DNA of 33,359 bases, from contig VGLJ01000054.1 of the NCBI GenBank assembly GCA_016866775.1, positions 1 to 33,359 on the forward strand. The letters run 5' to 3'. This DNA is from Candidatus Rokuibacteriota bacterium (GTDB lineage Bacteria > Methylomirabilota > Methylomirabilia > Rokubacteriales > CSP1-6). This document shows, in pieces, positions 26,205 to 28,216 of the stretch. The notes beneath the pieces were generated by a model. It did no database searches and was not told the DNA's origin. It was given only the letters and a program-made list of their open reading frames with translations. The position numbers and the translations under genes were made by a program. Every line of letters begins with the position of its first letter. The first letter of the stretch is position 1.

Positions 26205-27944
26205 ATGATTCGCTCCCGCCTCAGCGTCACCAAGACCACGCCGCTCGCCACGCGCGGGCTCGTCGCCGCCGAGCATCCGGCCGGCGCCGACATCGGTGCC
26301 GCGATCCTCGAGCGCGGCGGCAACGCCGTCGACGCGGCCGTCGCCACCGCGTTCGCCATGCCGGTGGTCGAGCCGTTCATGAGCACGATCGCGGGTGCCG
26401 GCACGATGCTCATCCACGTGGCCAAGCGGGGCGAGACGGTGTGCCTCGACTTCAACCCCAACGCGCCGATGGCCGCGCACGCGTCCATCTACAAGCTCAT
26501 CGGCGGCATCGCGACGTACGCGCTCTTCGCGTGGCCGCGCGTCGAGGACGACGCCAACGTGTACGGCTATCGCTCGGTCGCCGTGCCGGGCTCCGTCGCG
26601 GGGCTCGCGCTGGCGCTCGAGCGCTACGGCACGATGAGCCTGAAGGACGTGGTCGCGCCCGCGGTGAAGCTGGCGCGCGAGGGGTTCATCGCCGACTGGT
26701 ACCAGGCGCTCAGCACCGCGAAGTACCTCGAGGAGCTGTCGGCCTTTCCCGAGACCGCGCGCATCCACCTGCGCAACGGGCGCTCGGTCTACCGGCCGCC
26801 GTCGATGGAGCCGGGCGATCGCGTCACGAACCCCGACCTCGCGGCGAGCATGGAGCTGATCGGCCGCGAGGGGCCCGACGCGTTCTACCGCGGCGCGATC
26901 GCGCAGGCCATCCACAACGACATGGCCGCGAACGGCGGGTGGCTCACGAAGGACGACCTCGCTGCCTACCAGGTGCGCGTCGTCGAGCCGCTGCGCGGGC
27001 GCTATCGCGATCTCGACCTCGCGTTCTCGCCGGGCGCGACGGGCGGGACCACCGCGCTCGAGATCCTGAACATCCTCGAGCAGTTCGCGCCGTCCGCGTG
27101 CGGATACACCACCGCGGCCGGGCTGCACGTCCGCGCGGAGGCCGTGCGGCGCGCGTTCGCCGACCGCTTCGCGCACATCGGCGACCCGGCGGTCGTGGGC
27201 GACGCGTTTCGATCCTTGACCACGAAGGAGCACGCGCGGTCCGTCGCCCGCGACGTGAAGCGTGGAGGGGCAGAGGGGGCGGCGCCGCGGGGTGTGCGGC
27301 CGACATCCGCAGGCTCTGCGAGGACAGGAGGCCGCACACCCCGCGGCGCCGCCCCCTCTGCCCCGTCAGACTCCACGACGCGCGCCTCGGACTGCACCAC
27401 GCACATCTCCGTCGTCGATAAGAACAGGAACATGGTCTCGCTCACGCACACCGCCGTGTCGCTGTGGGGCGCCCGCGTCGTCGTCCCCGGAACCGGGATC
27501 CTCCTCAACAACGGAATGATTTGGTTTGATCCCGAGCCCGGGAAGCCGAACTCGATCGCGCCCGGGAAGCGCGGCATGGTCAATATGGTGCCCGTCCTCG
27601 GGTTCAAGAAGGGGAAGCCGTACCTCGCGCTCGGGGCGCCGGGTGGGCGGAAGATCATCGCGGCGATCCCTCAAGTCATCGCGAACCTCGTCGATGCCAA
27701 GGGCTCCCTGCAGGCGGCGATCGACGCGCCGCGGCTCCACCACGAGGGCAACGGGCTGGAGATCGACGATCGCGTGGGCGAGAAGGTGATGCAGGCGCTC
27801 GCGCAGCGCGGCCACACGGTCGCGCGCAAGACGGAGACGTACGCGTCGCTGAACTTCGCGCGGCCCGTCGGCGTGCGGATCACGGCGAAAGGTCTCGAAG
27901 CGGGCCTGGACTCGTTCGGCGCGGCCGCGGCCGCCGGGCACTAG
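26205..27944 (+). CDS. Gamma-glutamyltransferase family protein carrying a palindromic insert
   Basis: A 579-residue Ntn hydrolase precursor. The large subunit begins VAAEHPAGADIGAAILERGGNAVDAAVATAFAMPVVEP and contains GYRSVAVPGSVAGL. The self-cleavage site is DCTTHISVVD, with catalytic Thr398 becoming the small-subunit N-terminus. GILLNNGMIWFDP and GAPGGRKI, expected in the small subunit, follow. It would move or hydrolyse gamma-glutamyl groups, or act on cephalosporin-like or oxamic substrates as some relatives do. No signal peptide is visible, so it is probably cytoplasmic. Residues about 355-387, just before the cleavage site, are translated from a 35-bp inverted repeat and are low in complexity (Gly, Ala, Pro, Arg). 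This linker lies where large-subunit ends tolerate variation. The gene is 7 bases after the lipoprotein. Confidence 0.95.
   Translation: MIRSRLSVTKTTPLATRGLVAAEHPAGADIGAAILERGGNAVDAAVATAFAMPVVEPFMSTIAGAGTMLIHVAKRGETVCLDFNPNAPMAAHASIYKLIGGIATYALFAWPRVEDDANVYGYRSVAVPGSVAGLALALERYGTMSLKDVVAPAVKLAREGFIADWYQALSTAKYLEELSAFPETARIHLRNGRSVYRPPSMEPGDRVTNPDLAASMELIGREGPDAFYRGAIAQAIHNDMAANGGWLTKDDLAAYQVRVVEPLRGRYRDLDLAFSPGATGGTTALEILNILEQFAPSACGYTTAAGLHVRAEAVRRAFADRFAHIGDPAVVGDAFRSLTTKEHARSVARDVKRGGAEGAAPRGVRPTSAGSARTGGRTPRGAAPSAPSDSTTRASDCTTHISVVDKNRNMVSLTHTAVSLWGARVVVPGTGILLNNGMIWFDPEPGKPNSIAPGKRGMVNMVPVLGFKKGKPYLALGAPGGRKIIAAIPQVIANLVDAKGSLQAAIDAPRLHHEGNGLEIDDRVGEKVMQALAQRGHTVARKTETYASLNFARPVGVRITAKGLEAGLDSFGAAAAAGH
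27267..27364. repeat. 35-bp perfect inverted repeat inserted in the gamma-glutamyltransferase gene
   Basis: Arms at 27267-27301 and 27330-27364 are perfect reverse complements, 35 bases each, separated by a 28-base loop. Within the loop CGCAG (27308-27312) and CTGCG (27316-27320) pair again. Outside, CGTGGAG (27261-27267) and CTCCACG (27371-27377) also match after a small bulge, giving a 117-base unit, a multiple of three. The element leaves the reading frame open. It recalls palindromic elements such as the RPEs of Rickettsia, which insert in frame into genes. No other copy was noticed in this window. Confidence 0.9.
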
Positions 27945-27967: not shown

Positions 27968-28216
27968 ATGCCCCTCGAAGAGAAAGTCATCGCGAGCTGG
28001 AAGTACAAGAAGGGCGCGCTCGATCAGAAGACCGCGTGCCTCTGTTATCTCGTCGCCAACTTGACGGCCGGCAACACCCACTGAGCGCCGCGCGACCTGG
28101 CAGGTGCCAGGGCGGCGGGCGCGACCGAGGACGAGGTGCGGGAAGCGATCAGCTTCGCCATCCGCGCGAACGCGGCGAAGACGCACGCGGACATCCTGAA
28201 AGTCTGGAAAGAGTAA
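27968..28216 (+). CDS. Probable selenoprotein, AhpD/carboxymuconolactone decarboxylase-like, in-frame TGA at codon 39
   Basis: Reading through one in-frame TGA (28082-28084) gives an 82-residue protein. The frame continues as ordinary family sequence after it: before it KKGALDQKTACLCYLVANLTAG, after it AGARAAGATEDEVREAISFAIR. In the AhpD/CMD fold the catalytic motif is C-x2-C-x3-H followed by a stretch ending AGAT; by that alignment the TGA falls on the second Cys, while the first Cys is Asn36 and the His is Asp43. A hairpin with loop AGGT starts 11 bases after the TGA (see SECIS entry). A strong ribosome binding site, AGGGAGGA, precedes the ATG, and the next gene starts immediately after the TAA. 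Alternatively this is a TGC or TGT to TGA nonsense mutation. Bacterial AhpD-like selenoproteins are known. Confidence 0.65.
28082..28117 (+). promoter_or_regulatory. SECIS-like hairpin directly after the in-frame TGA
   Basis: After TGA come 11 bases, then CCTGGC (28096-28101), loop AGGT (28102-28105) and GCCAGG (28106-28111), a perfect 6-bp stem. Below it CGCCGC (28086-28091) pairs with GCGGCG (28112-28117), with a 4-base bulge on the 5' side. The apical loop starts 17 bases after the TGA, as in the E. coli fdhF SECIS, whose loop begins with AGGU. It would bind SelB and recode UGA as selenocysteine. Confidence 0.6.

Follow-up and report, generated by a model that had tools for sequence, protein, structure and literature searches.

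Hairpin inserts in protein linkers of a Rokuibacteriota lineage suggest a poorly known type of small DNA parasite

Why does the coding sequence of a γ-glutamyltransferase (GGT) contain a long palindrome in frame, immediately before the site where the proenzyme is expected to cleave itself? The window, i.e., the whole stretch of 33,359 nucleotides that was analyzed, corresponds to contig C54 in the draft genome (5.13 Mb, 159 contigs) of a Candidatus Rokuibacteriota bacterium. A preliminary description of the sequence had reported a 35-bp perfect inverted repeat of 98 bases within the GGT gene, extended by partly paired outer arms to 117 bases, and had likened it to the RPE elements of Rickettsia. 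Its geometry was borne out in each respect: exact 35-bp arms enclose a 28-nt center (98 nt in total), an inverted-repeat search recovered wider arms of 66 nt that are 85% complementary (27236-27301/27330-27395), and the 117-nt segment 27261-27377, a multiple of three in length, begins in phase 0. The perfect hairpin covers residues 355-387 and ends 11 residues before Thr398, the residue at which precursors of the GGT family are expected to process themselves. The near-identical peptide claimed for the two strands is also present, with GAEGAAPRGVRP...GRTPRGAAPSAP encoded on both. In a search of the window's first 27.2 kb with loops of ≤60, no other perfect arm exceeded 11 bp. The predicted RNA fold of the GGT hairpin has an energy of -142.5 kcal/mol (z -13.9), and none of 200 shuffled sequences folded as low. 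The features of the locus are collected in Table 1.

Table 1. Positions in the window of the GGT gene and of the parts of the hairpin that it contains.
Feature	Position	Strand	Evidence or remark
Host gene, γ-glutamyltransferase (GGT), 579 aa	26205..27944	+	PF01019, E 5e-130; orthologues in relatives 60-69% identical
Outer left flank, complementary with mismatches to outer right flank	27236..27266	+	66-nt arms, 85%; fold
Left arm, G-rich, 35 bp perfect	27267..27301	+	Inner ~15 nt like other copies, outer part site-specific
Core1, conserved: GACATCCGCAGGCTCTGCGAGGACAGGA	27302..27329	+	Repeated matches across own genome
Apical mini-hairpin CGCAG-GCT-CTGCG within core1	27308..27320	+	Subfamily 2 has a ~30-nt variable stem-loop instead
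Right arm, C-rich, 35 bp perfect	27330..27364	+	
Outer right flank, reaching the autocleavage site	27365..27395	+	
Thr398 codon, TTHIS motif, expected autoprocessing site	27396..27398	+	

The neighboring gene on the same strand (27968-28216) is carboxymuconolactone decarboxylase-like and matches PF02627 (E 6.5e-9) when an in-frame TGA at 28082-28084 is read through. This gene likely encodes a selenoprotein, judging from its alignment, because the TGA occupies the same codon in 22 of 22 aligned genomes of the family and the sequence is conserved on both sides of it. The stem-loop 3' of the TGA is not significant relative to shuffled sequences (z -1.7).

The GGT palindrome belongs to a family of small hairpin inserts that is specific to this lineage. 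BLAST with the element found matches at 17 places in its own genome. The 28-nt core1 occurs there in eight exact copies and 15 at ≤2 mismatches, against none for a reversed-pattern control, and a degenerate core1 pattern gave 20 matches, five of them belonging to a second subfamily, whose core has the variable stem-loop in place of its tip. A copy on contig C55 was missed by the degenerate pattern; with it, the family comprises ~20 copies, which have in common the core GACATCCGCAG...GCGAGGACAGGA. The matches at the end of contig C61 and the start of C34 appear to flank an assembly break within a single element, since their flanks both match one contig of the relative G013. A link of this C61/C34 site to polA was rejected as spurious, the hairpin itself being the sole matching part. 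Contig ends of C34, C41, C61, and C80 fall within element copies; the draft assembly therefore broke at hairpins, and the real copy number may be higher than the count. Insert length is ~98-155 nt in this genome and ~60-80 nt in relatives. The proposed RPE-like family of genomic palindromes lying in frame in a tolerant linker is thus supported, with the qualification that what the copies share is the core and the inner arm, and not the outer arm.

Core1 was absent from the other 56 of the 57 genomes of the family that were searched. A scan of 84,980 genomes gave three core1 matches, which we regard as chance because none of them forms a hairpin. Searches of viral contigs returned two core1 matches, neither in a hairpin, and none for core2 (see below); the phages and plasmids searched gave no match. 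We found no paper on such repeats in this lineage. Hairpins of the same layout with a different core, core2 (CGCTCGGAACGACACTCGC), occur in relatives that represent about six further genera of the family. They are multicopy in genera g4, g5, g11, and g14, with few copies in g22 and one true hairpin in g8 (G050), and have arms of ~18-29 bp. No core2 was found in other families of the phylum.

Comparison of GGT orthologues showed that most either lack a hairpin or have a different hairpin in the same linker. In three of them (G003, G013, and G040), that linker contains a hairpin of the same type with core2, and a fourth (G066) retains a half-deleted copy. The linkers of GGT homologues differ in length and cannot be aligned across the insert, so its true ends are not defined. 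Further copies in the genome and dissimilar sequences among homologues are the reverse of the pattern that the preliminary description had associated with an ancient linker.

The sharing of sites extends beyond GGT. By flank alignment, six of ~19 core1 sites are core2 sites in relatives: the genes for GGT, dihydrolipoyl acyltransferase (E2), and a CobB-like amidotransferase, and the loci L010, L017, and L009/L011. The relative orientation of core1 and core2 at these six sites is the same at two, opposite at three, and ambiguous at one, whereas co-located core2 pairs keep their orientation in 44 of 49 cases, all five exceptions involving the E2 gene of G010. That E2 gene (C222:12689-12824; L096/L109) contains two core2 hairpins in opposite orientation ~120 nt apart. 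Because relative orientation is mixed between the cores and mostly kept between core2 pairs, core1 seems to have been placed or swapped anew rather than being core2 mutated in place. It is accordingly possible, if doubtful, that, in each lineage, a mobile hairpin bearing a new core returns to the same genomic sites or to hairpins already there and builds its arms in place by copying the host flank through fold-back, so that nothing but the core is inherited. The presence of the core at site R in one species and its lack from a similar hairpin in another speak for re-targeting; in the opposite view, the shared sites would reflect an old element that underwent loop inversion and homogenization.

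The flanks of 17 sites were surveyed for presence and absence in four species of one genus. At sites N and I, both after a stop codon, and at site M, in polA, the whole hairpin is present in some species and absent from others. The polA alleles differ by 69 nt, i.e., 23 codons and a multiple of three. The outer left arm of the hairpin in G041 polA, CGGTGGGTGCC, is the reverse complement, with one mismatch, of the right flank GGCACCCGCCG in the empty G003 allele, and similar cases occur at site N. This resemblance points to an outer arm that is an inverted copy of host flank. Against new insertion, an old insert could have been deleted precisely to give an empty allele, the "native" flank then being a leftover part of the arm. 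At sites R and V, the stem lacks the core or encloses other long loops. At the gene end of site V, G042 has a core2 hairpin, and G041 (L240) and G040 (L241) have hairpins with similar outer arms and unrelated, longer loops. The polA copy of G040 is half-deleted; together with the half-deleted GGT copy of G066, it indicates that loss happens.

Copies have in common the core and ~15 bp of inner arm; farther out, their arms (35-50 bp) differ yet stay complementary. Of 25 stem pairs in an alignment of 13 copies, 23 have changed on both sides, and the fraction of stem cells that are paired is 97.7%, versus 75.7% for shuffled sequences and 40-51% when the register is slid; covariation of the mini-stem within core1 was unsupported in the same alignment. 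Among the arm pairs in 29 comparisons of core2 orthologues, 60 underwent change on both sides and kept Watson-Crick pairing, and 60 changed on one side. Under independence, the observed change of ~17% per side would give ~15 two-sided changes, ~5 of them paired, with the proviso that comparisons from the same site are not independent. The 5' arm contains more G than C in 69 of 70 elements with either core (mean 57% G and 28-29% C, orthologues counted). This bias is not obviously predicted by simple template switching.

Inserts sit in protein linkers, in several reading frames, or directly 3' of stop codons. In-frame copies in the genome under study are found in GGT, E2, the CobB-like protein, and MutS, and those of relatives are in PolA, MutS2, LigD, two E2 paralogues, RsmE, RsmB, ABC-F, a PriA-type protein, an acyl-CoA synthetase, a radical SAM/B12 protein, an MFS transporter, and a POR/DUF6537 protein. 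Many other copies lie ≤ ~10 nt from a predicted stop codon, with open reading frames picked by codon-position GC. The encoded peptides vary (e.g., SARNDTR, TTLARSL, RSERHSL, GECRSEQR, and RASVVPSE) because both sense and antisense frames are used. Replication and repair genes are among the hosts: PolA, MutS2, LigD, MutS, and the PriA-type gene (L144, L199, L107, L195, L201, L016, and L152).

The reading that we favor, with a probability of about 0.6, is that of an RPE-like, probably nonautonomous palindromic insert, with fold-back template switching maintaining or rewriting its arms. It would be a selfish or neutral insert, tolerated where it does least harm, in frame in flexible linkers and just after stop codons. 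A hairpin copy would first enter a new site by some enzyme or by a replication-repair route; fold-back template switching by a polymerase would then use one arm, or the host flank next to it, as the template for the other, and the arms would thereby be extended and kept complementary. Template switching is known to make and repair hairpin stems and to alter coding DNA, and it predicts block-wise compensatory change without selection (PMC8794818, PMC8604942). On this proposal, the arms would be site-specific and covarying even though the element had no RNA function. Mobility, the direction of gain and loss, template switching, and the lack of a function are what we infer from these patterns. 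No transposase or other mobilizing gene was found, no conserved terminus was seen, and no target-site duplication was evident at the sites with empty alleles, where either allele may be the older.

It is unlikely that the hairpin is instead a functional structured RNA or a protein-binding DNA site, where a lineage-specific factor recognizes the core and selection keeps the stem, as in a regulatory hairpin, a stabilizer of mRNA 3' ends, or a terminator. Strong covariation, a conserved core, positions common across genera, and the many copies a few bases from stop codons are what such a function would give, and the positions common to genera could mark old, vertically kept, functional elements. 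However, many copies lie inside unrelated housekeeping coding sequences in several frames, where a terminator would destroy the gene, and no T-run was seen by eye 3' of the hairpins inspected. Moreover, sister species have lost or half-deleted copies, and no Rfam family was matched, the only hits being sub-threshold microRNA-type fold-backs. Strong covariation, we caution, need not imply a functional RNA.

Mobilization as a REP element by a RAYT, an IS200/IS605-like Y1 transposase, is very improbable. REPs are likewise short palindromes at gene ends, and some of them lie within replication and repair genes (PMC3733652). No Y1_Tnp match was obtained in the element-bearing genomes searched, a result that a diverged RAYT below the profile cut-off would escape, and tags at the ends of the stems are no more frequent than chance would give (GTAG, one versus 1.4 expected; CGTC, nine versus 10.9). 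The stems are also 18-50 bp here versus 5-13 bp in REPs, and the conserved part is the loop and not the stem. We give equally little credence to a MITE of a classical DD(E/D) insertion sequence. The bacterial MITEs RUP, NEMIS, and ERIC resemble the present elements in being small, noncoding, and palindromic and in sometimes forming in-frame fusions, but here the terminal inverted repeats vary among copies, so that a transposase would lack a shared end to bind, and no target-site duplication was evident at the sites with empty alleles. An assembly artefact or a chance GC-rich fold-back, to which the several copies at contig ends might point, is excluded because the same type of element recurs in frame at orthologous positions in about ten separately assembled genomes, and shuffled sequences never fold as well.

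Two other known phenomena invite comparison. The hairpins generated by template switching, i.e., by quasipalindrome mutation, likewise have perfect arms and acquire multi-base compensatory changes without selection (PMC8794818, PMC8604942), but they arise from host sequence alone, whereas the conserved core here marks a repeat family. RPEs are multicopy palindromic inserts of ~100-150 nt, found in intergenic regions and in frame in genes for conserved proteins, with no known transposase (PMC2229807, PMC10969869), and the presence of a palindromic repeat in frame within protein genes is common to both. In contrast to RPE families, whose members share their terminal inverted repeats and a conserved encoded peptide, the elements described here have in common the core and the inner ~15 bp, with outer arms unique to each site, and they use several frames on both strands with no preferred peptide; Rickettsia also belongs to another phylum. 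Rickettsia provides the best-known cases of palindromes inserted in frame into conserved proteins, for which no mechanism is known. The present hairpins form a second set, apparently unrelated and from high-GC bacteria: sister species have alleles that clearly show either presence or absence, and the core at shared sites varies from lineage to lineage. They suggest a poorly known type of small DNA parasite in protein linkers. As such, they offer natural material for asking how palindromes can spread when no transposase is apparent, and whether 40-bp stems within coding DNA can be kept perfect by template switching alone.
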